DNA of 64,000 nucleotides, taken from the NCBI RefSeq assembly GCF_037975245.1, contig NC_092572.1, positions 28,131,989 to 28,195,988 of the forward strand. Direction: 5' to 3'. The stretch is from Apostichopus japonicus (taxonomy: Eukaryota > Echinodermata > Holothuroidea > Aspidochirotida > Stichopodidae). Of the stretch, positions 5,441-37,135 are shown piece after piece (the first letter of the stretch is position 1; every line of letters begins with the position of its first letter). The notes below the pieces were generated by a model, which saw only the letters and a program-made list of their open reading frames with translations, was not told the origin of the DNA and did not search any database. Position numbers and translations under genes: made by a program.

Positions 5441-5781
5441 CTCTGAGGAGGTGTTCGTATTCAATTATGTAGGATTACCTAATATTAACAAGCTGGATTG
5501 TGTACTGTGAAATGAAAAAAATGGCACTAATTCATATTTGATATGAAACTCCCTATAGTATTGACTGTGTATTTCTCAATCAGCAGTTTGAAATTTGCAA
5601 CAAAATTTCAACTAAAGATTTGAGTCCCAAATTTCATATTATTTCCAAGACTTGCAAAAACAGTACAAATAAACGTAATCTACAGAAATGTTCGCAGTCA
5701 CTGATACCTAACTTGGTAGTTTTACTAGCCTTTTTCATTTATCTAGATGTAAAATAAAATTCCTATGTTTACCTTTTTACA
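5441..5781. other. Short gene-free stretch 3' of the propeller exon
   Basis: AT-rich sequence between the tandem array and the minus-strand exon. It should hold the 3' UTR of that gene. The nearest clear minus-strand polyadenylation-type hexamer is near 5407, inside the last tandem unit. Confidence 0.35.
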
Positions 5782-6601
5782 CTATCCTACTGTACTTACT
5801 GTGCTGTATACATCCAGTATTCCTTCTATTGTTGTTGCAAACATAAACCTGTTTACATCGTTTATCCTGATTCTAATCAACGACTCATTAATAACTCGGA
5901 AAGTAAACAATGTATGATTCTCAGAGAGAGAGTAAACAACAACAGCATCAACAGGGAGAGACCAACATGATACAAACACCAGACCAAACTCACTGCTTAC
6001 AGTGATACTGTATGCAGATGGGTAGTCTGGTGTGTTGTATTCATGTAACATCACTCCCTCCATGTTGTATCTAATGGCTCTAGTATTCCTGAGTGTAGAT
6101 ATAAACAGATTATCTCCATAAACTGTTATATCTAAAGGATAATCACTTACTAATCCTTCCAAGGTGATTGTCTTGATTTTATTTAAACTAAAATCAAACA
6201 CAATCACCTCGTTAGGAGACAAACCAATAAATATCTCTCCCTCTCTGACAGTCATACACTTGGCTGGTCCATTGCGTAACTGATCACTGTGTGTGGGTAT
6301 GTCGTCTGTCTTGATATTGAAGACATCCAACTGATCACCACACACAGTGACTATACGAGCATCATCCAAGAATGAAACACAACGAGGCCGCCATCTTGAA
6401 GGATTCTTAAATTCTATAGAATAAAACCGAGTTATAAATTGCGTCGAAGAATTAGGAATATTAAATGCAAACAGGTCTATGAATGATGTCCCTGTAACTT
6501 CGTTGTAACCGCTAACAGCAACTTTGGTAGAATCCACCGTCACATCTTGCAACTCCCAGCCGACTTCACCGGTAAACCTGGGCAACTGCGTACGATGAAC
6601 T
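5782..6601 (-). CDS. Probable beta-propeller-type terminal exon (partial gene)
   Basis: A long open exon of about 270 residues ends in TAG at 5782. The frame has no good initiator ATG and runs upstream to an acceptor-like site (pyrimidine tract, then TTAAAG, just before 6601), so this is probably the last exon of a multi-exon gene. The protein has recurring short beta-strand-like blocks of roughly 40 residues: hydrophobic strand, a D/N-containing turn, hydrophobic strand (for example around VTVYGDNLFISTL and FGLVFVSCW). This resembles NHL or WD-like propellers found at the C terminus of TRIM proteins, but no diagnostic motif fixes the family. A GTAAGT lies inside the last codons (near 5795), so an alternative splice to a further exon is possible. 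Upstream exons were not recognised in the window. Confidence 0.6.
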
Positions 6602-6804
6602 CTTTAATAAACAAGGCAAAAAAAGTACAATATTAGGTCAAGTTTACAAGGCCGTGTCCATGGTAACGGAGAATGTTGTCAGACACTATGCATATAGTCG
6701 CTGGAAAATGTACCTTTTCATAAGAAAAACAAGAAAATAACGGAAGCTGAAGCATCCTCCCCCAATACTAAATAATAAACAAAAAATAAAGAAACAAACA
6801 AACA

Positions 6805-14035: not shown

Positions 14036-14040
<5 letters not shown>
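13665..14040 (+). mobile_element. tRNA-derived SINE, copy 1
   Basis: The 5' head (13665-13731) is tRNA-like, with GGAGTG/CACTCC acceptor ends, a Pol III A box TAGCTCAGTGG (13672-13682) and a B box GAGTTCGACTC (13715-13725). It is followed by AAGATTAATGTATGTTGTCC, a variable middle, and a 3' block starting at 13971 (AGCTTGCGGC...TGATAAGCC...TTCGCGAG...CAGGAG). The element ends in CATA repeats. The same head and 3' block recur at 37476-37718 with a different, shorter middle. Two copies sharing both ends, with internal Pol III boxes and a simple-repeat tail, fit a tRNA-derived SINE. Confidence 0.85.
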
Positions 14041-14402
<362 letters not shown>

Positions 14403-15563: not shown

Positions 15564-16178
15564 TGTAGAGCTTTTGCGAGTTGCAGGTGGGGACAGCCAA
15601 TGAAAATCGTACCCCTGTTTTGTTTGTAAACTTTGCTGAATCAGCACCCGAATTTTGAGATGTTCCCCTTGTTAGTGGTAGCGCAGATTGTTTTCTTAGT
15701 TTGAGCTCACCACGCTCACGAGGTATTCCGAGATTGGCCTCTGACAGAGAGAGAACCGAGAGAACGCCTATTTTCTGTAAGTTGCTACCACTTAACTGGT
15801 ATATTTATTCTATCACACGATTATGTGCTTGGCATGACTCCTAGGTTTAATTGTTTGTCTTAGGAAAGATAAAATCGGGTATCTTTGGGGCGACAGGGGA
15901 TATTGTTCGTACACCTAGGGAATTCTAAGAAAACTATCGTTGCGCTAAGTATTTTAAGTAACAAGAAACGAGGGTGTATTTTTAAGACATCATATTTGTT
16001 GTCACTTTCTATAGGGGGTTCGATAATTGTAATTTCGACTTCACTAGGAGGCTCAACAAACGCTAGTATTATCCTTCATCTGTAAATACATTTACCCACG
16101 TACTGGTTCGGTTGTGATCTCGAAAAGAGATATTTTATTTAGTAATATAAACTGGTTAAGTCTTTAAGCTTGTTGTTG

Positions 16179-16184
16179 AGTACG
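16179..16184. repeat. Left target-site duplication of the giant transposon
   Basis: AGTACG, identical to 36952-36957 immediately outside the right terminus. An exact 6-bp match at just these positions is the expected trace of a staggered-cut insertion. Confidence 0.88.
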
Positions 16185-16501
16185 TATGGCAAGCCGTTTT
16201 ACTTTTTATTCGATATTTGATGATATCATCAAATATTTGCTGATATCGGCAAATGAATTGGTGATATCAGCAATTGAATTGTTGATATCAGCAAATCATT
16301 TGCTGATATCAACAATTCCAACATATCACTAATTAATTGGTGATATGAGGTACCGAATTGCTGATATCATTAAATGATTTGCTGATATCATTAAATGATT
16401 TGCTGATATCAGTAATTGAATTGGCGATATGTTGGAATTGCTGATATCAACAATTCATTTGCTGATATCAACAATTCATTTGCTGATATCAGTAATTCAA
16501 G
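16185..16501. repeat. Left terminal array of GATATC units
   Basis: The first 55 bases (16185-16239) match the right end perfectly in reverse complement. About 11 GATATC cores follow by eye, mostly spaced 20-21 bases, separated by CAAATnnnTTTG-like or CAATTnAATTG-like palindromic spacers. A few cores are mutated (GATATG, TATCAC). The array ends about 180 bases before the HECT gene start codon. Confidence 0.92.
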
Positions 16502-16682
16502 CGTATCGAGCCAACGTCTACAAAAAGGAATTGGAAACGAGCGCTAAAAACAAAACCCATCCACACAAACCCCGCTAATTCTGAAGTAATGGCCGTATAC
16601 ATGGTACAAACATTTTAAGCTACATCGGCTATAGCCTAGATATACATGTGTGACATGTGCACTGCATCGTATAAATTGCAAG

Positions 16683-19600
16683 ATGGAAGAAGCCGGTCCA
16701 AGTTCCAATCTCGGTTCACAGCGAACCGTCCATAACCTAGTCGGAAGAGCAAGACCAGCTATTGCCGGGTCTAGTTCGGAAGCAGAGAATGATAACGATT
16801 TCGATGTTGTCCGACAGACTTTCCGATCTTTTCGGAGACGTCGCGATACAGAAGAGAGCTTGCGTAAGTCTGACTCTGACGTTAGCCTAATTGGGTCCCC
16901 TGCTTTTTGTGTTTTAACATTAGACTTAGGCTAGGACTAATACTAGTAACGCGGTACTAATTTAGAATCCGTACCATTCGACCCTACTTCCTAACCCGGT
17001 ACTAATTTAGAATCCGTACCAATCGACCCTACTAAGTAACCCCTAACCCTATTCCCTTCTTCCTTACCCTACTCACTAACCCCTTACCATATTACTTACT
17101 TCCTAACCCTAATTCCTACTTACCCTACTCCTTAACCCTACTTTCTAACCCCTAACCTTATTCTGCCTATTCGAATTAAGCTTTACCATTCATATGGTAC
17201 GGATTCTATAGTTAGGCCCTAACCCCTAACCCTATTCCCTTCTTCCTAACCCTACTCCCTGACCCCTAACAGTAACACTTTAGTTTCCAATTTCTTGACT
17301 TTTTTTCTTGAATGTCTGTTTGCCGAATAAAAAACATTTAGGATCCACAGACTGATTGGCCATGACAAATATAAGGCCTACTTCCTAACCCTAATTCCTA
17401 ACCCCTAACCCTACTCGCTAGCCCTACTTCCTAACCCCTAATCTTATTTTGCCGATTCGAAGTAAGCTTTGCCATTCATATGGTACGGATTCTAAAGTAA
17501 GGCCAAGGCGGGAATTACTCACAGAAACTCCTTTTGTGTTTCTATTTTGTTAAAAATACAATAGGTCTAGCCTGGGGCAATATTATTCTATGCTAGTCCT
17601 ACAGTGCTTTGTACAGTACTTAACCCAGGGCCCATGCTAGGCTATATGTTACAGACTACAGTACTTACACTAGGGGCTTGATGGCCTAGCCTGGTTTGGC
17701 CTAGCATAATAATTTAGTTAGGCCTAACACATTTGAAGCCTACTTCGGCCTAACACCAGGTGTTAATATAATAAGAGAATAACATGTAGGCTAATAAAAA
17801 GGCAAGGTTTAAAAAAAACGTTTTAAGGGGAGAAAAGTGCTCCTCCCCTTTAAGAAATTTTGCCTTCAGAAGGGGGCTTAGATTCAAAATGGTTCTATCA
17901 TTTTCATTTTCTCAAACTTGTACTGTATGTTTATGCACTAGAAATTACCATTTCTTGTGAAGAACCCAGAAATCAACATGTTTTGAGAAATTAAGCAAAC
18001 TATATTTGGAAATAAAGAAAATGTGAACAATTTTCTTCTTATTATAAATGTTTTAACTGACCCCTTTGTTAATTTAAAATCAGTACATTTAAAGATGTAC
18101 TGCATCTTCTGCCAACCATAAACCTAAAAAGTAGCGGATCCAGGGTTTGGAGGAAGGGGAACCAGTCATGAAGGCAAATCCCTCACATGGGAGCATTGGA
18201 GAAAGGTGCGCCTATGACAGGGGGGGGGGGGGACTGGGGCAGAATATAAGCAGCTTTTGTTTGCAATTTTGACGGCCTTAGAATCATAATCAATACAATT
18301 TATCAGCAAATGGCAGCAATAATTGCCAAAAATAATGACTTAAATATAATAATAAATAAATACCATATATTAAAGTGCTGTTATCATGAAATAAAACATG
18401 CTCAATAGCACTGTACAAAGAACCAAAACCTGGAATATAAAATTACCAAACATGGTGAACATGCCTTCAAATTTTTGGAAAATACAGAGGCTGTGGCTGG
18501 TTGAACCCCCACATAAATCTGCACCCATTAAGGATGGGGGGTTGGTGCTGATGTTGGTTTTAAAGTCATATCCTAGACACTGTCGAAGCTGACAAACTTT
18601 GTCCTATCATTCATTGACTCCATTCATAGGGCAGTTTTTAGTAACACAAAAACATAAAGATTTTTTTCCCTTTTCTTTATAATTCAGGGTCTTCAAAGAG
18701 GGGTAGACAATTTCGAGTGGAATGGAAGGGGACTCCTTTTCTTTTGAGAAGGTCCAATCCAGACTACTTTCCATCACCTGCGGAATGTAGATTTTTGAAG
18801 GAGCAACACTTTGGTGAGAAGATCTTATTTTCTTATATGAACCAGGCTTTTGACTTTTATTAAGTTAGAATCAAAAGATGGACATAGTTACTGAGTGAAA
18901 TGAGTATTGTAATCGATGTATGGCACTGAATTACTAAACATCTTACAGTACATCGATCCATCTTTTGCCAGTCCTTATCGTGTTGAAATACTATCATACA
19001 TAGAGTTATACTGTCCAAAAATGTATGATGGTGTGATGTACTTTGTCTGTGTAGTACTAAAGAACTGGTCAAAATGCGAGTTCGGAAGCATGTTGATTAT
19101 TTATTCATGGCACATGGCTCAAATTAGCCTCACTTAGCATTACTATATAATCTGCACTTCTCTTAATTACCCAATGTACGTAGCAGGCTAGTGCATTCTC
19201 AGTTACACCAGTTGTTTAAATCTTCAGTGTCCCTTTAATGTAACCACCATCCTGTGGTAGTCCTGCACGATACATACTTACCCAGATACTGTAGGGACCA
19301 CGAGCAGTCATCATAGCATGAGTGCGTGTGTTTGAGACACTAGCTTGTATCAAACACTTAGCCGGCAAAATGGGAAATAATTATCTCAGCAAAATTTGCA
19401 CTGTTTAATGACACAGTATCCCTTTCCCGCAGCTGTATATGAGAAATATATTAGCAAACACGATAGACTGATACATTTACTGTATGTGCGTTGTGTCTTT
19501 TACTCTAGGCACCCCAGATACTCCATTTGAACCATTTAACCGCAACTGGAGTATCGAGATGCTCAAGACAAAAATTTCAGAATTATACCCCGAGAAGTCT

Positions 19601-22600
19601 CTTGGGGTTATCGGCTTCAAATTTGGCAGGTGTGACAAAGGGAAGAAAATTCATCTAGTTGAGCCGGCAAATGTAAGGGAACTCGAGAAGGCAGTGGGGA
19701 GAGGGAAACTTGTAGTCATTCCTAACAATGACATTGGACTTACTTCGGTAAGTGTAAGACGTATTGGGCATTGAATGAACATATACATGTGCAAGTTTCA
19801 GTGTGATCAGTTGTTCTGTGTTTTCATTTTAGCTTAATCTTTCCTTAAATTTCTAGTATGTCTATAATTAACTGGTAATATTAATATATGTCAATAGACT
19901 TAAAAGGGCCTTTGTTCGAATGCGTCCAGCAAGTGCAGAAATTTCAATTGGTAATACTTCAGTTGATGATATCATAACTTAATTTAAGGTACAGTATACA
20001 TGAGTTTGTAGAAGATATCTTTGAGTTCTAGGTAAACAATACAATGAAATAATACAATGACAGTATGCTACCGTAAGTGCACTCTTTCTAAGACTGTGTT
20101 ATCATACTGTACTTTAAGTTTTAATTGAACATCCGGGAATTATCAACCACATTCTAGGATTGATGGATACAATTCACTGTTAAAATTACTCAATGATTTA
20201 TTTAGAAAATCATTCATTGCAATCACAATTTCCAAATTTTACTTTTTTCCTTTTTGTGTTAAAATGTTGCAATTCGTTCACCATAAGCCTTTGTGTTTAC
20301 AGTACCTCATATTTTTTCATAATTTGTTTTTAGTAATTTTTATAAATGTTGTACAGTACCTATTACATTGTTTCTTACAGATTGAAAGTAGCAATAGACT
20401 GGAAGAATCTGGAACTCCAACTGTCACCTTTACTACACAGGATGGACAAAGAAGATCATCAGGTAAGCAAGTGATATCTTTTTTGGTTGCAACTATATGA
20501 TTCACCTATCCATTGCAATTGACCTGAAGCTAGACTAGCAATACTGTCGCCAATATAAGTCATGTAACACTTCTATCGCCGTAGTTCACTAACCTAACCA
20601 TGGCCTAAGAGTCAATGGTCATGATCTGCTTTAAAGAGTCACATAAGATCCAACCATAGACGTCAAGTGGTTCTCTGCCTTTGCAACATGATGCACAATA
20701 TTGTTCCGGTTCTTTTAAGGATCAGGGATATTGCATTAGGCAGGGCATCATGAGGAGACAAGAATATTGGACTCTGGATATAACGTTAAAGGGTACTGTA
20801 GATGCAGTCACCACAATTTACCTACAGTAGGTATATCCTTGTAACCTAATACATGTACGCTATGTTTCTTTTCTATCATGTCACGTGACAATATTTTTGT
20901 TACTGGATCGCTAAATTCATGCAGGATAAATACCTTGGTTTACCTTAAAGATAAAAGTGACAATTCCACATTCAAGAAAAGATAAGATTTTCTTAGTAAA
21001 TGCTTTTAATGGTTTTCTGTTTACACATCCGAAAGAATGGAGTCAATTTGATGTCCTGAAGTGTTGTAAAATACCGCTTAAACTTGTCATTTTCTTGTTA
21101 AAAAAATGAGCATTTTGCGAAAAGCAGTATGGTGATCATGTGGTCTAAATCAACCTGTGACGAGACAGAGGGTTTGATGGACAGCTTATGTCCGTTTATG
21201 ACCAGGGTTGAAGGTTATGTGTTGCTGCCGTGCCACACCATGTGCGTGTATGTAGTCTAAAGGTGCCTGCAACTAAAATACAGGGCCCAAATGTTGATTT
21301 AGTCATGTGAAAAGAGGCAAGGCAAAAAGAGCTGGATAAAATTCAAGTAGGGTATTTTTAGAAACCGTAGCAATGATAGTTATTGTACATTGTACCGGGC
21401 CCTGAAGGGGGGGGGGGCAACCAAATGGTATCAATCATGAGAAAAGAGACAAGGATAATTCTTTTTGCGGTACACCTACAGTATTAGACATTTGGTATCC
21501 CAAAATACTAATTGCAGCAACTTTATATTGTACCGAGCCTGTGTAGGCAGCAATCAAAGAAAGGCCCTTCGGCCCACACATAATTCATTTATGTGAAAAT
21601 GAGCAGGATAAATCTTTTAGTTGCATTGGACTCCTTGGACATTGGGGTATCCAAAAATACCAATTACAACAACTTTATGATGTAACAGGACCCATGCAGA
21701 CAGCAGCCAGAAAGGGCCTGTGGCCCACACATGATATTTAATCATGTGAAAAGAGAGCAGGATGATTTTTTATTGGTGCTGGACCCTATGTTTTTTGGGT
21801 ATACCCAAAAACCTATGACTGCAAATTTATCCTCTACCATGGCCCAGACAACCCCCCCTTCCCCCAAAAAGGCCCATACATTATTTAACCATTTGCAAAG
21901 ACCCAAGGATAATTCTTGTAGTTGCATTGGACCCTTTACCCATTGGAGAAAACCAAAAATTGCCCATCTACAACTTTTATCTGTACCGTGACTCAGGCAA
22001 CAGCCATAAAGGGCCCATGTCCCACATATGATTTGATTATGTTAACAGAGAGCAGGATAAGTCTTTTAGGGGTGTTGGCCTCATTAGTCATTGCCGTATT
22101 CAAAAATACCAACGACATCATTTTTTCCTGTAACAGGGCCCATGCAGCAACCTTAAAGGCCCAATTGCCCACACAGGAATTAATCATGTTAAAATAGACA
22201 AAGGGCCCGAAATTCTTATTTTTAGAAAAATTATTCTGATTTACCAATAATTCAACAGAAAATTCACCTCATTTTCGATTTTAACACATTCGTGAAGGAT
22301 CAGTTTATTATCACTCCTGTTTTATGAGCAACATTTATCGTTGCTTATATGGTTAAGATTTTTGCTTGCTTGCTGCAACTCCATGGAGTTGCCGCCAGTG
22401 AACAAAATGCAATCTCTTGCTGAGAGGAAATCTTTGTAGAAACCATTGCAAAATTCTTTACATTAATTATCTGTTTATGTCATTTATTCTAGTGCTATTC
22501 AAGGTCATTGCATTGTTTGCAAATTCTTAAATTCATATAACTTATGGAGGCGCAAAATCAGTATTTTAGTCTCAATTTGTTTATACCTTTCCTGATGTCC

Positions 22601-25600
22601 TATTTGAAAAATTCAAAAAGTATGTTATTTGGTAGCATGTAAACTACAGTGGATGTAAGAATTGGAATTTTTTTTTCTGTCTCTATTTTTCTACTTTAAA
22701 TATAGAATGTTTAACGTTCTGAAAGTCATGAAAAGTACCGTACTTGAAAAGGAAATTCAAGGAGCTTTGTTAGATTTAGCTGGTGTTTCAGAATACTGTT
22801 GGGAGACTTGTATACCCTTTGAGCTTGTAAAATACTAGTTATGTCTTATCTTCATTCCCTTTCTACTTGACATCAAAAGCACTCATGACAGCCTCAACAT
22901 CAACATCACCTGCTAGAGTAACAACACCAACAGTACCTGCCACAGCTTTAGAACCAAATACCCCTACTTCAACAGCCACAGATACCGCTACCTCGCAGCC
23001 AGCTGGACCATCAACGATGGTGTTAGGTAGGTCTTAAATTTATTTAGAAGACACGGGGGGACTAAGGTACAAGTATGTAAACATTTTACTTGCTAAAGTA
23101 TAGTTATCTTAAAATTGAACAAGGAAATGATGAATGTTTGTCATATATTATTTGAAAGTTTCCCTGGGTTAGACAGCAGTCAACCACACTATCCCACCCC
23201 ACCCTCTCCCAAATGGTATTAATATACTGTACCTATGTGGGATTGTGGGCATCACCCAGCATCAAGTCTGAATATTTTCACAACTGCAAATTTGGGTGGT
23301 TGACATATACCCACTGATAGTGTTTTGGTTATATATTGTAATGTAACTGTCATTATGCCATGAGGGGAGAGCCACATCAGTTACTATTATTTGGTAAACA
23401 AGTAAGTTTAACAATCCTAATGAAAGTTTGTTTGGTGTGTTGATGTCTGGTGCAATTAGCAGAATCCTTTTGATTTTGTGGATATGATAAGTGGATAGGG
23501 CAGAATTAGTTATTATGTGATGTCAGTTACTCTGCAACAACATCTGATTTTAGTCACCTTCACTACAAAGTCATTGGAAGTAAGCGTTCAAGTAAATGAA
23601 GGATGTGGAATGTCCCAGTTATTTTAAAATTAAATGACAGATATATTGGTAAGACACAGTGCACAGTGAATTGCGGGTAACCCCAAAATTGAAATAACCG
23701 CATATTATAAATACAGCAGGTGTCATTGAGAACTGTCTCTATAAACAATAGGAATCATCTGTTCTTTCGGATACTGTTAGTCATTTTCTGTATTTAACAA
23801 AGAATTGAAGTGCTAATTGAGCAAAGACCTACTGCATTAACTAAGTTGGTATAATCTATAAAAAAAATATTGACAGTTTAAGCTGTTTATAAAAAATACC
23901 TTGTAATGACTTTTTTGTGTCGGTTCACCCTAAATTATTGTATGTAAAGTCTGTATAGTATATATTTGAACAGTGTTGGACAAAGTATGTGGTCTAGCAC
24001 CGTGTTGTTTGTTTGAGTTCTTGATTTAAGTATGCCTTTTTTTCTCTTGAAAAATTATGTAACAGACAAAGTTGCAGTACATGTAGACTCAATCAATACT
24101 GGACTTAGTAATCCAACTTTCGTAAATCACTTCATTTCTTAGTAACATACTGCTTGGTGAATGCATTATATAGAAATAGTTTCCAGTTCATCAAATTGTC
24201 TCTACTTATTTCTTAGATGCCGCTGCTGACGATGAGTTACCAGATTTTGACTTGCAGTTTAATGTCATGTATGGTAAATATATTCATCCCTCATTTTCAA
24301 AATCTGCATCATTATCACATAATCAACTTCTACCTCATTATTTGTACACATATAAATGGTAACAAAGAACAGATGTGTATGCACAAATATATTGAGAAGG
24401 ATACTATTACAGTTCTCATACTTGGTATGTAGATACCGCATTTTCATAAGAAAAACTCCCTTGACTTTGATGGCAGTTTAAGGTTATCTAAGGTCACCAG
24501 TGGTCAAACTTTCAAAACCTTGTGAACACATTATCTCAAGATACAGTAAGAAGCATGGATACTTTTCATATGTAGCATGTGGTTGTGTTGCATTAAGTAG
24601 GAGAACCCCATCATTTCTTTGTGAAGGCCAAAGGTCATCTCAGGTCATCAGAGGTCAGACTGTTAAAAAATCTGCCAAAAATATTTTGCCCTACAATTAC
24701 CTTACTGAAATGTAACCCAATGCCTCTCTTGCATTCTGGTTGTTCCTCAAAGAAGGTTTAACTTTAAAATTAGTATTTATATTGCCCTTTCTAGGTGAGT
24801 AGATGACTCATGATGTTTTTCATGGAGGTAGGGATGCACTGGATATCTGGTCCGGCTGGACTATGTGACCAGACAGTAAACAATATCCATGTCTGTGTCC
24901 GGCTAGATCTTTCATGAAATACGATCGAATCTTTCACAGATTCTGGGCAGAATTAATTCTTAGAAGGTGGTGGTACTGTAGTTTCATAAATACATGTATC
25001 ATCTTTCCCCATTGTTTTTTTTTTAAATGTGTATTACATAATAAGAGATTGTCCAAGGTATGGTAGGTTAGGTGTTCATTTCACTTTTAATGTAAGTTGA
25101 TTGTGGTTTCTTAAAATTTAGACAAGTTAAAAATTATTCACATCTAAAATTACCAGAACTGACAGTGAAGGCAATTTCAAAGTTAGTCTATCCCCAGTTA
25201 TCACACACAGAAAAGTATTAAAATGTTGTTGTTGATTAATCATTTGAATGGATGAACAGCCACATTGATGTCACTGGAAACAACCATTCAGAACATGTTT
25301 CCATTAAAATACTCAAGCAAAGTAATTTATTTTGCTGTTGTTCAAAAGCCTCAAATATGTGATTTTGAAGATTTTTACATCTTTTCACCATGAAATTTGA
25401 CATTTTGCTTTGGAACCAAGTAATGTTCTGGATTTTTCCAGACCCTACATACAGTTATCACACCAAAAAGCTTCATTAATTTTCCAGTGCCTCATTTTGT
25501 GTGATTCTTTTTGGAGATAAAGCTGAGGTACAACAAATTTTATAATATGATTATCCACCAAAGTAAGCTGGGAGCAAAATGCATGCACTGACAGGGTGTC

Positions 25601-28454
25601 CACACAGTAGGGAAAAAAGGTAAAGTCTGGAATTTTTGTACGATCTTGAAAGTCCATGAATTGTGTAATATAGGTCTGGAAAAAATGCCATATGGTCTTG
25701 AAAATTAAAAACTTACACTTAAGGTACTTGAGATCATGTTGGTATGTGTGTCCAGTGTCCACAGTGTCTAAATGCATTAAATCAAGTTTGCAGTTTTATT
25801 TCTTCCCAACATAAAGCTTTCTTATTCAGTCTTAAAAATGGCCATTCTGGTCTTGATAAAGTCTTGAATTTCAGTATCTCGAAAGTGTGGTATCCCTGTA
25901 AAGAACTTTACTGCTAGGATTTTACCATACATAATGAGCATTTTTTAAAAATTTTTTTAAGATCCATTTGATACAGATCCTCCTCCTAAAAGTGGAACAA
26001 ATGAGATGGAACAGGACGTAAAGCAAGGTACAGACAGATTAAAAGTTTTTCACTGAGTTTGGCTTTTGATTACAGTGGCAAGATTTGGTATCATAACAAT
26101 CTGTATCTGAGTACAGGCCGAAGTATGTAGGTATTTGAGAAGATTATGGAGAGGTTTTTCTATGTGTTGTGTACAAATAGACTGCTGTTCTTGTGTCAAA
26201 GGTCATGATAGGTCAAGGCAGGTTAGAATGCAATTCACAATAAATTGTCTCAGTCTATTGAAAAAGAAGCTATAATCAAGTATGTATTTTATAAACATAC
26301 TTGAGCCATTTGATCTGGGTGTATCATATATGTACTTTTACAACAAGATTAGTTAAAGTATGCAATTCCAAAGATATTTTTCTGATGGATCTGCTACTGA
26401 GGCCAGCTACTACTAGAATCTTCGGTGTACCCCAGTATATTGACCTTACATATGAACTGTATGGAACAGAGAACTACTGCTGTTCACAAAATAGATGCAG
26501 TACCAAGTGATGAACTGTGGATGGCCTAAAAATAACATGAAAAGAGGATTTAACATCTGACTTCATAGCTCCGTTGGCAAAGCAAGCATAGAAAGTGGGA
26601 GGTCCCGAGTTTGAAATATATTAGAGTCATTTTACTTTCACCACTTCCATACTTTTGGTGTTATGTACAGTATATATAGCATTACATATACTAACAATAA
26701 TCACAGTGTAGCAGTGTAACTCCTAAAGTCTGTTGCACACCTCATTGACATTGACATCATTTATTTCCATCATCAATTAAATACAATAATGTTGAGCGTA
26801 ACATTTTTAAGCTCACAGAAAGCACAATACAATATAGAGACAACATTCAAGATTAAATGGAAATGGAGAAAAAAGAAGCAAAATGCTTATAAATACTTTC
26901 CCCAAACCTAAAGTAACACATCTCAATTCAACAGTCACATGCATGATAGCAGTGTGCATGTCTTCACTATGGAGACCACCTCAGTGAAGCCTGTATTAAG
27001 TGACATTATAAATGCCATAAAATATGTTGATTCTGCTCGTCTGACAGATTGCCATTTTACTGTGGTTTTAGCAATGAGCAGTGTTTTGTATATTATCCAG
27101 TCAGGATACTTGAATGTACTGTATGTATGTTACTTTTCAAATGAGGAAAAACTATGGAAGAAAAGCATGTAAGTAGCTCAGAAAGTCAACTACATGCATA
27201 GAAGTCAGTTACAGGTTTGGCAGCAGCCAGTCACATTCGTATGATCATTGGATTTGACAGAAAACTAGGTCAGGATAAGAAAATCATGAATCTGAAGGTT
27301 ATATTGAGTTTACATCTTGTCGAATATGGGCTGGCTCATTTTTCAGTGAGTTACATTGACTGATTTGCATTGTAATTTATCTATGGTTTTTTGTAATCTT
27401 TGCAGCTTTCTTAGAGTTGAACATGAGTCTGTCTGGAGAAGTGGAGGTCACAATTAAGCGTGAAGAGGTGGTTGACTGTCTCTTTAACATTCACACTAAT
27501 CCTGAGATTTGTAAACAAAAGATGAAAGTTTGCTTCGAAGGGGAGTCTGGAGATGATTTTGGTGGCCTTACAAAGGAGGCTCTCACCCTTTTCTGGAACA
27601 ACGTAACAAAGGAATTCTTCACTGGTGAACATATCACTGTACCTGGCCTGCCACTTCACCGCCTTCGCAAAGAGGAGTGGAAGTTCCGATCGCTTGGCAG
27701 GATTTTGACTCATACTGTTGCATTAACAGGTGCATTACCCTGTCGACTTTCCCAGTCAGGAATTATTGCTATGGTGTTTGACAGTGGTGTAAATCCAGAG
27801 TATCTCTGGAAGGACTGCCTCATGTTTGTTTCACCTGCAGAAAATGTTTTAATTTACAAGGCTTTAAATGACTTTGCCTCACTGACACCTACCTTGTTGG
27901 ATCGCCTTACTACATTTTTCAGTGTAAATGGCTTACTTGAAGTGCCAAAAAGAGATGAAATAAGAGACCAACTTTTGGCAATTGCAACAGAGAAGCTGGT
28001 GAAGTCTCCAAGCCGTTTCTACGCTCTGATGAGGGAAGGCATTCCAGAAGCACACCTCGGTCTGTTCTGGCGTCATCTTTCTCTGGAACACGTGTCGTAC
28101 ATAATGGACTCACAGAGACCTACTCCATCAAGAGTTGTAGAAGCTCTTCGTACCGCTGATGACTTGAGACCTCAAGAAGAGTGTGTATTATATTTCTTAA
28201 CGGAGTATATACGATCACATGACACTGATGATCTTCTTAACTTTTTACTGTTTGCAACTGCATCAATCCACCTGCCAGAAGGAGGAATAACAGTGTCTTT
28301 TGTTGCCACCTCAGGACTGCTGCGCAGGCCAGTGGCACATACTTGCTCCAACACACTGGAAATCAGCACAGCATACAACAGCAGCCAAGAATTTAAACGG
28401 GAAATGAATTTGTATTTAAGAGATAAGTATTCCTACCAATTCACACTTCCATAA
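16683..28454 (+). CDS. HECT-domain E3 ubiquitin ligase of the transposon (8 exons)
   Basis: Predicted exons are 16683-16863, 18688-18813, 19509-19747, 20381-20462, 22880-23026, 24217-24273, 25962-26027 and 27406-28454, all with GT/AG borders. They total 1947 bases, an unbroken 648-residue frame. ATG 16683 was preferred to an upstream ATG at 16650 for its AAGATGG context. Residues 1-60 are Ser-rich with an Arg cluster. Exon 3 encodes a compact domain of unknown type. Exons 4-7 form a Ser/Thr/Pro and acidic linker. Residues about 300-648 are a HECT domain, with the FGGLTKEAL start and a C-lobe AHTCSNTLEI motif whose catalytic Cys is about residue 613, 35 from the end. HECT enzymes pass ubiquitin through this Cys to lysines. 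The size and divergent HECT resemble the G2E3-like group abundant in fish and cnidarians (inference). It reads towards the integrase gene. Confidence 0.9.
16985..17510. repeat. Degenerate TAACCC-rich block with inverted GTACGG words (intron 1)
   Basis: Degenerate CCTAACCCTA / CCCTTCTTCCTAACC repeats fill this part of intron 1. They are bracketed by the phrase AGAATCCGTACCAT (two copies near 16960-17030) and its reverse complement ATGGTACGGATTCT (near 17195 and 17480). The remainder of intron 1, to 18687, holds a poly-G run near 18220-18232 and no recognisable gene. Confidence 0.65.
21290..22215. repeat. About 147-bp tandem repeat in HECT gene intron 4
   Basis: A phrase CATGTGAAAAGAG(AG)CAGGAT recurs, with variation, near 21304, 21436, 21590, 21742, 21888, 22038 and 22184, about 132-154 bases apart. 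Each unit also carries a TTGCATTGGACCC-like segment, a CCAAAAATACCAATT segment, an AACTTTAT..TGTA segment and GGCCCACACA. The array lies wholly in the 2.4-kb intron between exons 4 and 5. Confidence 0.8.
26566..26618 (+). other. Possible decayed tRNA/SINE head in intron 7
   Basis: TAGCTCCGTTGG at 26566-26577 resembles a Pol III A box, and GGTCCCGAGTTTGAAA about 22 bases later resembles a B box, as in the SINE heads elsewhere in this window. The arms do not fold well and no body or tail follows. Confidence 0.3.
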
Positions 28455-31400
28455 ACAGTCTCCCTTTCCGTATTTCTTTGTTCATGTACGTGTTGAATTT
28501 TTTATTACATTTAATTCAGGGTTGCCATGCACTAGCCATCACCTTAAGTTTTTAATGTTTCCTACATTCCATCCATTTCTGGCAACTATTTTTGCATACA
28601 CTATTTTGATACTTTGACATTTTGTAGTAGCCATTTGTTTAAATTTTAGATTCACTTGTAGACGTCAATTCTTGCCCTGTTGTTTATTGATACATGTGTA
28701 TTATAAAGTAAATGCTTAAAGGGTGCCAAATAAGTCAAGTCTAAATGCTTTATTTTCACAAAGATGCAGAGGGGTTCCAAGTGACATTTCAAGATTAACT
28801 TTTCTTAAATCAATTTCACATTAATATATCAGTGTTTTATTCTTCCCAATTATTGATAAGTATCTGGTCTTTCCTTATCGTTTTTCTGTTTAGATCTAAG
28901 GACAATTTAACATAGCTTCCGTTTAAGAATAATGTGCTTACAACTCAAATAGACAGGAGCAACTCACAAATGTGCTGAATTTATAAAAAAAAAAAAAGGT
29001 CTCAACAAAAGACAAGTTGCAAACTTGGTGACCTGATGTAGATGAGCTATGTAATGACCCAAGAAGTCATTAACATCTACCTGGTAGTAAAGCCTCTCCT
29101 TTTTCAGCTTCAGTTTATGTTTGTAATGTCACTTTAGGTATTAGCACGTATGTTATGAGAAATCTTATACATCTTCTTTACTTTCTTATCAATTACCATT
29201 GCTCTTTTATTTTAGTGCTGTTCCATTTAACTGCAAGGATCACTCTCATAGTCAAGGTAATCTCTATAACAAAGATTCTTGTATAAGCATTAATTATATT
29301 TCAGTAAGAACATTGTTTTCATAAAGACGAGATGGACACAGACAGCTGTTATCACAGAGCAATATATTCCACCAACACAGTGATAGTGTTGTTTTGTTCA
29401 TACCGCAGACTCTCATTTCATTCAACGTGAATTGATCTGTATTAGTTTGAACTTAATAATCTTTTTGTACTTTGACTTTAAATATGATACTTGACATTTT
29501 CTATCAAAGTTGCATTGGCTGACCCAAATGGATATTACCAATGAAATACCTCTAACTGACATACATGATCCTTTAATATTTTACAAAATGTGTGGGTTGT
29601 GGTTATACTTTTGAATAGTCCACATACCTTTAAGTACCATTGCATACTGATTAACTATGAACGTTACCTGTACCTCTTAATCTCTTTTGGACGTGTCTCC
29701 AGCTGCTTTTTACAATCAGTTGCATGTAAAGACATACTTCATATTTCATTTAGGACAAACCTTGTCATGATACCATTACAGAAATATCTTGTTTTCAGGC
29801 CCTTACCAAAAGTTTATATTCCAACTTGCCAAAATATTGAAGTATGATCGGTGCATATCAGGCTCACATTAGCCTTATGAAAGTCACTATTAAGTACCTT
29901 AATCCATCAAAAATAAGAACAAGCAAAACTACGCACATAATTTCAGCAAATGTATTCTGCCTTACTCATGATTTTTAGCTTTGCCTTTCTAATATATGAA
30001 TTTCACATATTATGTAAAGTATCAGCAGTGATGTAATATCCTTTTTTGGTAACTTTGTGTGCTATCGGTGTTTTCTTGCCTTTATAATAAATTTTGTTTT
30101 TAATAGAGACAAACTTTTTTATCTTTCTCATCATATGTCGTGCAGGTTTGCAAATCATTTTAGTGACAACTTTTTGATTTGATTGAAGAGAGCAAACCAA
30201 TAAGTCAGAATTTGAGAAACACTACTTAAACTGGCTGTGGGCTGAACAAGTTACATTCAGTTCACCTTTCCAACGGTGTTGTAAAACATCACAAAGGATG
30301 TTTAGGAAGGGTAAAACAAGAAATTTGACAGGATCAGCTGATGTTTCACACTTGAGTAAGGGCGACTGCTTATGCCATTTTAAAGAGTTTCAACAAGATC
30401 ATCCCTGAATTTAACACCATTACATTTCCATCATCAAAGGCATTGACTACGCCTTATGTTTCTGGCATGTGCATAATAGATTATTCCCATCTTTTAGCCT
30501 GCCTCTCCTTAAAATACTCAAATAGTAGTTATGAATATGGTAAGTGCCAACTAAATGAGTTGTATGTATTTGCACTAGTCCTCATTTTATTTGTTCAACA
30601 TGAATGTAGTTCATAGTTCATACTGCCGTAGATTTCCACGACCCTTAAAAAAATTAAAAAAAGTCAAATGATTTTGCAACATCCCATATTATTGCTGACC
30701 AGAAGTGCACAGGTATTGGAATATTCATTAATGCATGCTTCTACATACAGTATAAGGTTGAAGTTCAAACCATATTTCACTTCCTAAGTGATGATATTTA
30801 TTTATATTTATATCTAATTGATTCAAGGAAACTTAACCTCTATGAAAAACAATAGCGATCAGCTACTTACCAAGGACTACATATATACAAATTTTCACTT
30901 CTTGAGATCTGGTGTTTACAAGGTTTGAGAGTTTTCACTCTTGACCTTGAATGACCTTTGACCTGCATGAAAAACAATAGGGATCATCTACTCACCAAGG
31001 GCTATCTACAATGCAAGTTTGAAGTTCAAGCAACTTTCCCTTCTTGAGATGGAGTGTTTATAAGCCAAGGCGTCACACACGCACACACAAAGTAAAGTGA
31101 ATTACAGCAGTACCAACATCTGTTAGGCAAAATAAGCTTTACATTTGGAAAAATATGAGAAATAGCCTTTGATGAAAACAATGATTTTAGAAAAAGGATT
31201 AATTTTCCAGAAGACCTTGAACAGCTCAGGAAAACTAGATATTTCCATTAAGTTAACATTGTTTTTATATGTGTAACATAAGTCAGGGATATTCAGTGAC
31301 TTTGTGTTACATGCCTAGCTTTCTCTGAAGATGATGTTGAATGCAGTTAACCTAAATACCTGTGAAAAATATTTAAGGTTTTAAAACTGATGAAGATAAA

Positions 31401-31557
31401 ACATTAGTTAGCTAATCATGCAAAATTCATAGACGTTAAGGAATTTTCCTCAAGTTGCAAATTTTGCCATCAGTGTCTTATAGTCGGCTCTACAACGCCA
31501 TCACCATCTCATAGATTCCTTCGGCAAGGATTTAAAAATACAAAACACATTTTCAGC
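28455..31557. other. Intergenic region between the two transposon genes
   Basis: It must hold both 3' UTRs. There is a poly-A run near 28985-28996. At 30900-31110 two TGACCT-type interspersed repeat units occur, with a DR1-like pair at 30952-30964 and an ACACACG tail. Small open frames (for example 29590-29847) have no support. Confidence 0.5.
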
Positions 31558-34500
31558 TCATCGCAACATTTCATTTAGGATGGTGACACATCTTCTGTAT
31601 TTCAATTTGCTACCTCCATTGGTGTTGTCCACTGCATTTCTCAGTTGCTGCATCTGATCGTTGTCAAGACCTTCTATTGAGTGACTGTCAACACCATCCA
31701 TGGATACAGTTCTTCCCACTGTTTGCTCACTGCCTTCTTCATCATTAGCCTCCAAGAGAGAACACAATTTTGCTTCTAGGTTGTCATCTTCCTCTTGAAA
31801 CATCTCCCTTACTACTGTTGCTGTTGAGTTTGTGTTCTGTAGAAAACCATCTAGCCAAATTTGATGAGGTGTTCTACTTTGCTCTGTTCTAATTTTATGG
31901 CTGTTCCACCCATTTCTGAACTGTTCCATGAGCTGATTGATTTCATCCAGATAGACAAATTTAAGTGCAAACATTTCTGTGGGGCTGTCAATGTGTAAGA
32001 GGTCATTGTCTTCTAATTTATAAAATTCTTTATACAAAGTTGAAGTGACATCCTTGTGAACATCTCGCCACAGACGCTCGATTCTTTCATTATGTACTGA
32101 TTGTCCAGTGATGTGGCTTCCCCGTCCACTTCCTCTTAACAAATTCATGAGAAGGGCAACATCAATGTTTTCACTGCCATAGTCTGACCTGACACGGGAG
32201 GGAAGACCATACCTTTTTGCAGCTTGCACAAACGATCTCTGAACAACATCAGCCTGGTTAGTTGTAGAACAATTTAAGTACACAACCATGCGTGAATAAC
32301 CGTCGATGCCACCATGTGTCACAAATCCCCATCTGTGTGAAACAAAACAAATCTTCATATCATTTACAGTACTAAAACTTATGTTTCGATCATGCCATGA
32401 GTTTCAGGTTTATTAGACATTTGGTTCTGTAATAATGGTGTTACAGGCAAAGCATCACAAAACAGTACAATAAAACAGAAGGAACAAGAATGCAAAAATT
32501 GATTGAGGTTTGATGACTTCATTACACTAGACATCTGCTCGTTCACCAGAAATAGTTCTTAAAATATAAATGTCCTGAATAGCTTTTGGATCTACCAGTA
32601 CACTATGGCATGTACAAAACACATCATTCTTCTGTGAAAAATCACCCACAATAAACAATAGGGGTCATGTAGTCAATGTGAGCAACCTCACACCAACTAT
32701 GAGAAGTATCCATTATTACTCCCTTCAAATATTGTGTTTAGGTTTTCAGAGTTGACCTCTGGTGACCTCAAAATGTTCTGAATTGTTGTTCTCAGTAAGA
32801 TGAATGTGACTCACGGTATTCATAGCCCAGCCAACATGCCCAGCTGGGCTTAGAGGTAGTCTGTATTGGCCCCAAATTATAGCATGCTATAATTTCTAGA
32901 CGTTTTTAAAAAGTACTTTCCTGGAGGTCTTTACTATCCAAATTGTTCTCAGACATTCTAAATGAACACAAGATGACTAAATTTCCCAGTGAGGTAAATT
33001 TCTTGAAAAAAATATATCAAGAGTAAAGTAACCCATGTTTTGGCTAATGTCGGGCTTTCCGTTACTCTGGAGCCCAGCTGGCTCCCAAGCGCGGCCCAAC
33101 TGGGCAGACACTCTTATTTGATTGATGCTTATTTCTTAGAAAATTCATGTTGTTGGCATTTTGTGTGTTATTGGGAGTTTTAAGTTAAAGGATAGGCTAT
33201 GTGATTACAGCTTAATGTCAATCTAAAATTTAGTTCAATTTTTGCTGGGCTGCAGCTGGGCTATTGCTGGAGTTTCCCACTATTTGGAACCCAGCTAGGG
33301 CCCTACTGGGCACTTCTTTGGACAAACACTCTTCAGTTCATAAACCCAATTTTGTCAACCTTGAAAAAAATAAAAGAAAAAAATTAACATGTTTGTATCT
33401 GGCTTAACCCTTACAAAAACTTCACACATGTTTTCCTGCCTACCGTTTTGGGATGTACTTATTTATCAAGCAAGGCCATATATACTGTAGCTAGGCCTGT
33501 AGCGGTTAATTACCCCACGGACAAGTTTGAATTTTGAGAAATAAATGTGTGTCATATATGGTATTCTACAGTGTGTAGACTAAATCCGTGCAGCATTTCA
33601 AATTGAAGTTTTCTCATAGCTTTGAGTCCAAACAGTATCTATTGGTGTGTTTAAGCATCAGTCATCACCTACTGCCTTAATGGAGGATCTGAACAGAAAC
33701 CGCCCAAATGAAAGAAAGAAAAGGCACCTAACTATATGCATATTACTTGCTTTCATGCCCATATGGTTTACCCAAAAAGCAGCTGGAGCCCACCTATAAC
33801 CCAACCATAGCCCAGATGGAGCCCGGCTGGGCCTAGGTCGTGCTAGCTCAGTTGGGGCCCACCTAGGACCCACGTGGGCCCCGGTTGGGACAAACACGGC
33901 TTGGCCCCAGCTGGGAATGTTGGCTGGGAGGTTCGAGGACTAACTGACAGCAACTTTAAAGAAATTAATAGATTGTGAAAAAATTGATATATTGGGATTA
34001 CTGTGGATATGCCAACCTTGGAATTGTCTTCTTGTTTTTCACTATGTGGCCAGACAGCCAGGCCGCACTGGATATCCGGTGCATCCCAAGGCTTTACAGC
34101 GAACAAGCCAATTGAATACATCGAGGCAGTCACCCGAGGACATTTTGACAGTGTGTAGTATGAAGTCTAGCTTTTTATATACCAAACAGTGTGTTAGTCT
34201 GTTGATTATTTAAAACCATCACAGGGAATAATTTAGTGTTCAAATTTTGCCTAGCATTTCTGAGGTTTTTTCAGTTCTTAAGCATAAATACATTAAAAAC
34301 CCTGGGGTTATGCATGCGAAAAAAATGCTACAGATGTTCCATTTGTGTAGCATTTTGACCAGTTTGTATAGCCAAATGAGATGTGATACTGGATAAATTA
34401 TTCCCTGCACGTCCATAGAGCAAAATTGAGACAAACCTAATGAGTTTCATATGGCCATCTATATGCCAAAGACTGTTGGGTGTTGGAACAAAGTAAGTTC

Positions 34501-36182
34501 TTCTGGCCACGGTCCTTCCCCATCTACTGGCAGTTCCCACCGGATCAGCTGTACGCAACATGGAGCGATTTTTTTGCCGTGGGACCAGAATTCCTTGGCT
34601 CCTAAGGTATCCATTTATCATCTGAAAATAAAAAAGCATACAATATACAGCATCAGAAAACCACGGGGGGCAGCATGCAATTCCACCCTGGAAAAGACAG
34701 AAAAAGGTCCCATAATTGCATTGACTGGGCCGAAAAAATATAGGAAAAGTGAAGAAAATGGCCCCATAAATTCTTATCACAGAATATGAGATGAAGCTAT
34801 TCTTATTTTTTTTCTGGTAATGAAGTTTCTTTGGCCAATCTCAGCCTAGTTTTGATAGAAACTGCTACCAGCCAAGATCAGTCTGTGCTGATAGACCATA
34901 CAGTACACCATTGTTAGTAGCGACCATGCTAGAAAGTTTGTGTAACCTTTGGGATCAGTATGTACGTAGATATTGTTGATATTTTTCCCACACAGGCAAA
35001 CATATGCCGTGTACCACTATTAACACGAAAACACACGTGTTTTCGAAGATACCAACTAGCATTTGCACTGCTAAATTTGACAGTGAAATATCAGCCATTT
35101 ACCCTACAAAACCACCATCTTATATACAAACAGTTACCCACCAACTGTTATGATTGACCTACTTATTTGAGAATCTTTTGCAACTTCAATTCTTCAGAAT
35201 GGAAAGAATGTATTATTGTAACATGAACAAACCTCTGTGCCACTATTTGGGTGCTGCTTACTCAAGTTAGTAATAATGGCTGTTAGGTCTTCTTCACTCA
35301 TGTTTGTGTAACGTTGTCTCATTTTCATCCCATGTTGGTAAAGGAGCTTGTACACAGCAGCAACTGAACACTTAAACTGTTGCGCCATTCTCTTTGCAGA
35401 ATAACCCTTTTCATACAGGTAACGCAACTGCTCAAATGGTATTTCCAATCTCGGCCTTCCTCTTCGACCTGTTGAACAGCAAAAGTAAACATACACTGTC
35501 ACTAAGAAAACAAAAACAGATTCACAATCAAACAGTGACGTAGCCAGAAATAGGATGTTTAACTTCCGCAGTCACATGCAACGTTGCATTTTGACTTATG
35601 AAAGATAATCTAGAGTGCCAAACTTGTGTGCGAGTGTAATGACATACCGTACATTATACAACGGGAGGGGAAAGGGGACTAAGTTACACAGTACTACTAC
35701 TGCCACTGGGAGTGGTACGGTAACTACTCATGCACTTGTTACAGGGAGGACAAACGTTGGGCAAGCACCGAAGGGCCAGGCCTATAAACCTATAGATGAG
35801 AGGCTATGACAAATAATACCGGGGTGGTTAAGTAGTTCAATATGAAAGACCAAAATGTTAAAAGTATACCATGGTCGGCGACAGGAACAGGCTGGTAAAT
35901 GTGCCCATTAGACTGGCTCCCCGATGGTGGCTGCAACGTTCCGTCTGGCTGTGCCTGTGCGTCTGCGATAGAAAGGAGCTGATCTAGCACAGCTGCTATA
36001 GAATTGAACCTGTGCTCATCGATGCTCGCGTTAATCCGCTCTAAATTTCTCTTTGCTTGGAGAAGACGTTCTTTCGCTTCAGAAGCATTGTCATTGTCAG
36101 TTAAGAGCCGCTCTACTTCGCCCAAAATCCGAGAAATTCTGTCAAGAACGATCTGTGCTTCGTCATTTACAGCCATCGCCAT
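31558..36182 (-). CDS. D,D(34)E integrase/transposase of the giant transposon (4 exons)
   Basis: Minus-strand exons are 36182-35870, 35468-35233, 34621-34437 and 32332-31558, with GT/AG borders and matching phases. They total 1509 bases (502 residues). ATG 36182 sits in ACCATGG; ATGs at 36227 and 36233 are alternatives. Residues 1-75 are helical and may form a coiled coil. Residues 105-111 (GRRGRPR) look like an AT-hook and are followed by a helix-turn-helix (SAKRMAQQFKCSVAAVYKLL). The catalytic core spans about 225-370: Asp238 in WHIDGH, the RWGFVTHGGIDGYSR block, Asp295 in RSDYGSEN and Glu330 in NERIERLWRD, spaced D-56-D-34-E. The tail is acidic. This is the retroviral-integrase-like family often annotated as integrase core domain in fish, cnidarians and echinoderms. 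It would cut and join the element's ends. The second exon junction (AG|A) rebuilds Arg245. Confidence 0.92.
32826..33928. mobile_element. Nested CCCAGC-rich inverted-repeat element
   Basis: It begins CCCAGCCAACATGCCCAGC and ends with the inverse of CCCAGCCAACATTCCCAGC, giving 23-bp terminal inverted repeats with one mismatch. Inside are many CCCAGCTGGGC-like palindromic words near each end. It lies in the third intron of the integrase gene, hence inserted after or carried with the giant element. No obvious target duplication was found, so its class is uncertain. Open frames at 33658-34133 come from the GC-rich repeats. Confidence 0.7.
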
Positions 36183-36271
36183 GGTGAAAGTACCGCTATC
36201 GGTACCCTGTTGTCTCGCCACTGTCATTTGCATGTACTGCACATCGTGTGCGCATGCTTGTAAGGCGGGCT

Positions 36272-36951
36272 GTCACGGTTGATTTACTGATATCATCGTC
36301 ACGGTTGAATTACTGATATCAGCAAATGATTTGTTGATATCATCAAATGAATTGGTGATATCAACAAAAGCCTGCATTAGTGATATGTACGGTTCATTTG
36401 CTGATATCATTAAATCAATTACTGATATCACCAATTGATTTGTTGATATCAGCAAATGAATTAGTGATATGTTGGAATTGTTGATATCAGCAAATGAATT
36501 AGTGATATGTTGAAATTGTTGATATCAGCAAATGAATTGGTGATATCAACAATTATTTGTTGATATCAGCAAATAATTGTTGATATCATCAAATGATTTG
36601 CTGATATCATCAAATGATTTGCTGATATCACCAAGTCATTTGGGGATATCACCAAATAATTGCTGATATCTGCAAATATTTGTTGATATCAGCAATTATT
36701 TGTTGATATCAGCAATTATTTGGTGATATCAACAAATGAATTGGTGATATCAGCAAATGAATTGGTGATATCAGCAAATGAATTGCTGATATCAACAATT
36801 ATTTGGTGATATCAGCAAATAATTGTTGATATCAGCAATTATTTGATGATATCATCAAATGATTTGATGATATCAACAATTATTTGCTGATATCACCAAA
36901 TATTTGATGATATCATCAAATATCGAATAAAAAGTAAAACGGCTTGCCATA
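36272..36951. repeat. Right terminal array of GATATC units
   Basis: About 28 GATATC cores by eye, mostly 20-22 bases apart, with CAAATnATTTG or CAATTATTTG spacers, end in the 55-bp perfect inverted repeat (36897-36951). It is twice as long as the left array and lies about 40-90 bases upstream of the possible integrase start codons, so the promoter must fall in or beside it. Confidence 0.92.
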
Positions 36952-36957
36952 AGTACG
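36952..36957. repeat. Right target-site duplication of the giant transposon
   Basis: AGTACG, identical to 16179-16184, immediately outside GCCATA at the right terminus. Confidence 0.88.
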
Positions 36958-36987
36958 TCCCAATAAGATGTATTGTATGCCTCCACG

Positions 36988-37135
36988 AGTTAGTGTAACT
37001 GCGTAAGTGCGTAACTGCGTTAGTGCGTAACTGCGTAAGTGCGCAACTGCGTAAGTGCGTAAGTGCGTAGTTGCGTAACTGTGTAACTACCTAATTGCGT
37101 AACTTGATAAGTGCGTAACTGTGTTACTGCTTAAG
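36988..37135. repeat. 16-bp minisatellite GTGCGTAACTGCGTAA
   Basis: About nine degenerate copies of an 8/16-bp unit (GTAAGTGC / GTAACTGC) start 30 bases outside the right end of the giant transposon. Confidence 0.85.

Follow-up and report, generated by a model that had tools for sequence, protein, structure and literature searches.

A probable IS3EU/GingerRoot-type DNA transposon of Apostichopus japonicus and its recurrent HECT ligase partner

IS3EU transposons are described as always ending in TA..TA, usually flanked by 6-bp duplications, lacking an HHCC domain, and forming one lineage with GingerRoot; they are related to IS481 and IS3, and the first catalytic D of their transposases lies 100-300 residues from the N-terminus (Kojima and Bao, 2023; PMC10045372, in the portion of the text available). 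The termini of fungal IS3EU elements read TAYGG..CCRTA (Kojima, 2025; PMC12730594, likewise in part). Here we describe a 20.8-kb element in a 64,000-nucleotide stretch of the Apostichopus japonicus genome (assembly GCF_037975245.1, contig NC_092572.1, positions 28,131,989 to 28,195,988 of the forward strand; hereafter the window, in whose coordinates its features are given). With a probability of roughly 0.87, we regard it as a DNA transposon that is complete, carries two genes, and is of the IS3EU/GingerRoot type. The element is mobile and was inserted precisely, with a 6-bp duplication. Its apparently new part is a HECT ligase gene that recurs as the partner of the transposase gene; no HECT-bearing transposon was found in the open-licence papers searched, a set that does not include Repbase, which may hold such elements.

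The element is bounded by a perfect terminal inverted repeat (TIR) of 55 bp, with termini TATGGC..GCCATA. The left copy (TATGGCAAGCCG..., 16185-16239, plus strand) occurs once in the window, as does its exact reverse complement, the right copy (36897-36951, minus strand, ending in GCCATA), and the hexamer AGTACG lies at both outer edges (16179-16184 and 36952-36957). Subterminal arrays of palindromic units centred on GATATC are located inside the left end (units of ~21 bp, 16215-16497) and the right end (units of ~20-21 bp, 36314-36921). The first 420 bp contain 11 GATATC motifs and the last 679 bp contain 28, mostly at a spacing of 20-21 bp, compared with a mean of 0.1-0.2 and a maximum of 2 in base-shuffled controls of the end segments; the interior contains 5 occurrences over 19 kb, compared with 6.3 in shuffles. 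As the units are palindromic, single strands of one stretch per array (16205-16304 and 36800-36930) fold far better than shuffled sequences (z of -7.5 and -12.4, respectively). Two genes converge inside the element, with the HECT domain (PF00632) on the plus strand and the integrase core (PF24764) on the minus strand. All of these features (the perfect 55-bp ends, the flanking AGTACG, the GATATC arrays, and the convergent gene pair) had been proposed in the original prediction and were found in place.

The four integrase exons, separated by GT-AG introns, join in frame into a protein of 519 residues with one terminal stop. Exon 1 (35870-36233, minus strand), in which the first in-frame ATG was taken as the putative start, is supported by exon joining, and its conservation was not seen in the tblastn comparison. 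Exon 2 (35233-35468, minus strand) encodes a helix-turn-helix (HTH; PF02796) conserved in a diverged family, F3, that is described below. Exon 3 (34437-34621, minus strand) carries the first catalytic D within HIDGH and is supported by a profile match, exon joining, and tblastn conservation, and exon 4 (31558-32332, minus strand) carries the second D and the E of the DDE triad and the stop, supported by a profile match, exon joining, and alignment. Pfam models matched the protein at E-values of 2.4e-86 (PF24764), 8.1e-8 (rve, just above its cut-off), and 3.5e-5 (HTH). The DDE residues are D255, D312, and E347, with 34 residues between the second D and E, both of which are invariant in all six aligned integrases at 28-64% identity. 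An HHCC domain was not found before the integrase core, and the 519-residue protein has a single cysteine upstream of D255. The two best NCBIfam models are IS481 (1.3e-15) and IS3 (1.6e-11), both under their curated cut-offs. The "retroviral-type" label originally given to this integrase applies only in a loose sense: rve is matched, but the HHCC domain is missing and the nearest NCBIfam models are prokaryotic. The element shares with IS3EU/GingerRoot the TA..TA termini, the 6-bp duplication (22/22 copies with both ends, as well as F3 and two further families, F4 and F6), and a DDE transposase devoid of HHCC. It had been suggested that no named superfamily fits; in ends, duplication length, and transposase type the element does match one, and its class is therefore not new.

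Other copies were sought in an assembly of 671,581,487 bp in 35 contigs, using the left 116 bp of the window element as a query. At least 24 elements gave a full-length match, besides the window element and its duplicate on contig C12. Twenty of these were retrieved, 19 with both ends within the retrieved sequence and one with one end only. All 19 shorter paired copies, which are 438-6,789 bp long and match the window element at their ends, are flanked by an exact 6-bp duplication. Two other full-length copies were found via the integrase, C17:6325041-6345475 (20,435 bp, duplication CTCCCG) and C16:29793053-29813839 (20,787 bp, duplication CGCCCG); both bracket the same two genes, and in the integrase and HECT exons searched they share 99% amino-acid identity with the window element. 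Over a middle 6-kb stretch the window element is 98.1% identical to each of them, and they are 99.7% identical to each other. For a 91% copy near C17:20492323, the right end was looked for and not found. The expectation of one complete mobile unit, recently inserted, is thereby upheld: full-length and shortened copies exist with duplications of their own, and the perfect TIR and the ~98% identity over the middle 6 kb to two copies indicate a fairly recent insertion.

The closest copy, C12:27815550-27841581, was ruled out as an independent insertion, since its duplication is the same and its flanks are nearly identical (1.5 kb on the left at 100% identity; 811 bp on the right, within a 7-kb stretch at 99.8%). 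It represents either a duplicated locus (segmental duplication) or a retained haplotype or assembly haplotig, and was left out of the 22 duplications analyzed below, although it was counted among the 83 integrase loci. In this copy, ~0.33 Mb from the window element, ~5.35 kb of the left part of the element is also duplicated in tandem.

A 180-bp query in which both flanks are joined over a single AGTACG gave 40 scored genome matches at 77-100% identity. The two filled sites on C12 match it only to the junction, whereas the other 38 continue across the junction; therefore, the element sits in an interspersed repeat and its insertion was precise. The 20 empty sites retrieved, almost all of them among the highest-ranked matches, each carry a single 6-bp target (AGTACG in 10, AGTAAG in 7, and AGTGAG in 3). 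The empty-site string predicted for an unoccupied allele is present literally in 8 of these 20 paralogous sites and with small variants in 12. The flanking sequence itself (16065-16184 and 36958-37017) belongs to an interspersed repeat, of which the genome contains at least 38 related copies that are not interrupted.

The 22 duplications available (from the 19 short copies, the two other full-length copies, and the window element) comprise 20 different sequences and reveal a near-palindromic, CGGCCG-like target preference. C occupies position 5 in 22/22, G position 2 in 17/22, and G position 6 in 18/22 duplications. All 22 contain a CpG, compared with 9.0% of the 6-mers in the window, and their G+C content is 78%, compared with 37% in the window. 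The duplications of F3 and F4 also contain CpG, and that of F6 (AAATAA) does not.

The last HECT exon (27396-28454, plus strand) contains most of the HECT domain, the catalytic TC cysteine, and a TAA stop. PF00632 scores above its cut-off here, as it does in four other families; the exon is conserved in F3 and F4 and has E6AP/HUWE1 as counterparts in PDB. The conserved cores of two internal exons, given as spans rather than exon edges, are located on the same strand at 18666-18815 (36% identity to F3 by tblastn, 2e-6) and 19541-19735 (34%, 9e-12). An alignment of the five families matched HUWE1 at 3.2e-19, covering positions 2-312 of 319, and all five aligned families, at 24-38% identity, share an invariant catalytic TC. 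The exon check covered 7 of the 12 exons that had been predicted to join in frame: the four integrase exons do join, three HECT exons are backed by protein conservation in a diverged element, and the remaining HECT gene model is predicted only. The catalytic cysteine was kept while the genes diverged to 24-38% identity, which speaks for ligase activity. Most likely the HECT protein works as a ubiquitin ligase to the benefit of the element and is not a passenger.

Pairing of the two genes was evaluated across the genome. When the window exons served as queries, 21 of the 37 merged HECT loci had an integrase match within 10 kb, all 21 in convergent orientation, whereas the shift null gave a mean of 0.22 and a maximum of 3 (2000 trials). 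When Pfam profile searches (PF24764 and PF00632) were joined to the window-exon HECT list, 42 of the 83 PF24764 loci had a HECT neighbour no more than 15 kb away, convergent in 41 cases and divergent in one, with near-identical copies and the C12 duplicate each counted separately; shifting the HECT loci by 0.05-1 Mb gave 0.74 on average and 4 at most (1000 trials). Both shift nulls reject a chance neighbourhood or a host HECT gene. Two loci that seemed HECT-less in the window-exon search, C5:2013712 and C6:17699708, possess weak convergent HECT C-lobes, and no convincing HECT was seen in the 10 kb examined at C4:4261597. PF24764 had no match in 14 control genomes, nor did PF00632, so these controls are uninformative about animals. 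Integrase and HECT loci are crowded in one 10-Mb part of C17 (15.4-25.5 Mb), perhaps a region of low recombination. At C9:13.94-14.34 Mb, six stop-bearing HECT-like loci with one small integrase match nearby are possible decayed elements or HECT pseudogenes.

Three diverged families are represented by complete elements, each with convergent HECT and integrase exons inside: F3 (C16:5792413-5813831, 21,419 bp, duplication CGAACC, TIR of 49 bp), F4 (C3:14225777-14244133, 18,357 bp, GCCGTC, TIR perfect over its first 13 bp), and F6 (C8:13960563-13973751, 13,189 bp, AAATAA, TIR perfect over its first 35 bp). F3 is 38% (HECT) and 51% (integrase) identical to the window element, and its first 17 bases (TATGGCAAGCCGTTTTA) are identical to those of the window family. 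A fourth candidate, F5 (C16:42952460), was not counted as complete, since only its integrase-side end was seen (TATGGTTGGCC..). The termini are TATGG in F3 and F4. The arrays of F3 are 21-bp palindromes on CTTAAG, with 20 copies in one 560-bp end, 23 in the other, and no GATATC in either, and those of F6 are 22-bp units with AATCTGT..ACAGATT, in which AATCTGT is found in 17 and 25 copies at the two ends. F4 has only a few ACGCGT motifs and no long array; end arrays are thus not universal. In F3 and F6 the units still recur about every two helical turns while their sequence differs from that in the window, and the arrays may serve as multiple binding sites for the transposase, co-evolving with its HTH. 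The original prediction did not include the preference for CpG-bearing targets, the pairing with HECT across the genome, or the reappearance of end arrays built on different sequences.

Several observations weigh against a two-gene IS3EU/GingerRoot transposon with a working ligase. The placement is based on traits and curated models rather than on a comparison with reference proteins, the IS481 and IS3 scores fall below their cut-offs, and the termini of F6 are TACGA instead of TAYGG, sharing only TA..TA. A HECT match within 15 kb is missing at 41 of the 83 integrase loci; many of these are short or stop-bearing, and six have stop-free open frames of 266-431 residues (C12:2795255, C17:16568265, C17:19327331, C18:14910806, C20:27732746, and C21:12249102). 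HECT is thus a recurrent but not a universal partner. Between the window element and either other full-length copy, which are close copies, the HECT exon shows 1 synonymous and 3 non-synonymous differences. The integrase exon shows 3 of each relative to the C17 copy (the C16 alignment, one codon short, was left out), and the F3 pair shows 6 synonymous and 1 non-synonymous differences in HECT and 5 and 4 in the integrase.

The unpaired loci, six of them with long frames, would be expected if the HECT gene were a host gene captured once, or standing beside the transposase by chance, with no role in the element. Extra genes, namely TET/JBP and alpha-kinase, have also been described in fungal IS3EU elements (PMC12730594, in the part of the text available). 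This explanation is improbable, however, given that 41 of the 42 neighbouring pairs are convergent where shifted loci gave four pairs at most, that the pairing holds down to 24-38% HECT identity, and that both genes lie within matched ends in four families and the catalytic cysteine is invariant in 5/5. Another proposal, that the convergent gene pair defines a superclade broad in animals and meriting its own name beside IS3EU, draws on the deep divergence within one genome (28-64% for the integrase, 24-38% for HECT) under a constant gene pair and orientation. We consider it a doubtful possibility: the terminal consensus and the 6-bp duplication match those of IS3EU, the same genome has integrase loci that are open yet lack HECT, and one animal genome was searched.

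A length near 20 kb, a 6-bp duplication, and an integrase are also traits of Polintons, and the window element shares all three; it could then be a Polinton/Maverick or another virus-derived element stripped of its replication and capsid genes. Polinton/Maverick elements carry a family B DNA polymerase, a packaging ATPase, and capsid genes. None of the polymerase, packaging ATPase, and capsid families scored above its cut-off in the 20 frames scanned out of the element's 129 (at least 50 residues), a coverage at which short exons could be missed. The transposase is nearest to IS481/IS3, the element has TA..TA termini, and viral contigs scanned with the transposase alignment gave 27 pattern matches and no confirmed relative. 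We therefore regard a Polinton-like origin as highly improbable, and an IS3EU/GingerRoot transposon with a HECT partner as the preferred reading.

For such a transposon a cut-and-paste cycle can be proposed. The 519-residue transposase would bind the terminal bases and, via its HTH, the palindromic end arrays, excise the element, and insert it at a CpG-bearing target by cuts staggered by 6 bp; repair of the gaps would then create the duplication. Shortened copies (0.44-6.8 kb) that retain arrays and ends would be mobilised in trans. The HECT ligase may mark a host silencing or repair factor for ubiquitin-dependent turnover; alternatively, its substrate may be the transposase itself, with turnover or with release and clearing of the transposase complex.

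That a ligase has stayed next to a transposase across deep divergence points to an action of these elements on the turnover of host proteins, an idea made testable by recent copies with intact catalytic exons. The family also offers a clear view of insertion, with paralogous empty sites, a CpG-bearing target, and arrays constant in spacing and changing in sequence. A broader reading, which we hold to be rather unlikely, is that of an ancient animal transposon clade with an E3 ubiquitin ligase as its standing factor for co-transposition or counter-silencing; the co-evolving arrays would give each family a private 20-22-bp address, and a late-arising host HECT gene, G2E3 for example, could be a domesticated descendant. 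The origin of vertebrate G2E3 has been placed after the chordate/echinoderm split (Marin, 2010; PMC2837046, in the part available). The odds of this reading are reduced because six unpaired integrase loci carry long open frames.

Elsewhere in the window, a 273-residue open frame at 5782-6603 (minus strand) has no Pfam match at E 0.1 and is perhaps a host-gene exon. The segment 7252-7638, open on both strands with short tandem units within, is perhaps a small palindromic element. Other tandem arrays consist of 219-bp units (4166-5460), 36-bp units (61016-61358), and an ATAC microsatellite (14036-14400).

Among known systems, the HECT E3 ligases HUWE1 and E6AP resemble the window protein in the HECT domain, which spans nearly the whole length by profile, and in the catalytic cysteine, although the window protein is strongly diverged and transposon-encoded. 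Prokaryotic IS481 and IS3 elements share the combination of HTH and DDE transposase, but the window transposase scores well under their curated NCBIfam cut-offs. Those elements are not known to have introns or a ligase. Ginger1/Ginger2 and Polinton have an integrase-like transposase and TIRs, as here; Ginger1 differs in possessing an HHCC domain (PMC10045372, in part). Closer are IS3EU/GingerRoot, with TA..TA termini, 6-bp duplications, no HHCC, a relation to IS481/IS3, and a first D whose reported range includes residue 255 of the window protein; a HECT partner, a size of 13-21 kb, and palindromic end arrays of 20-22 bp are not described in the available part of that paper, in which the words "hect" and "ubiquitin" are absent (PMC10045372). 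In the fungal TET+ IS3EU elements the extra genes are TET/JBP and alpha-kinase and the hosts are fungi, and the same two words are absent from the portion of the text available (PMC12730594). These fungal elements share with the window element a TIR of more than 30 bp ending in TAYGG..CCRTA, a 6-bp duplication, and a transposase gene oriented opposite to an extra enzyme gene (PMC12730594).

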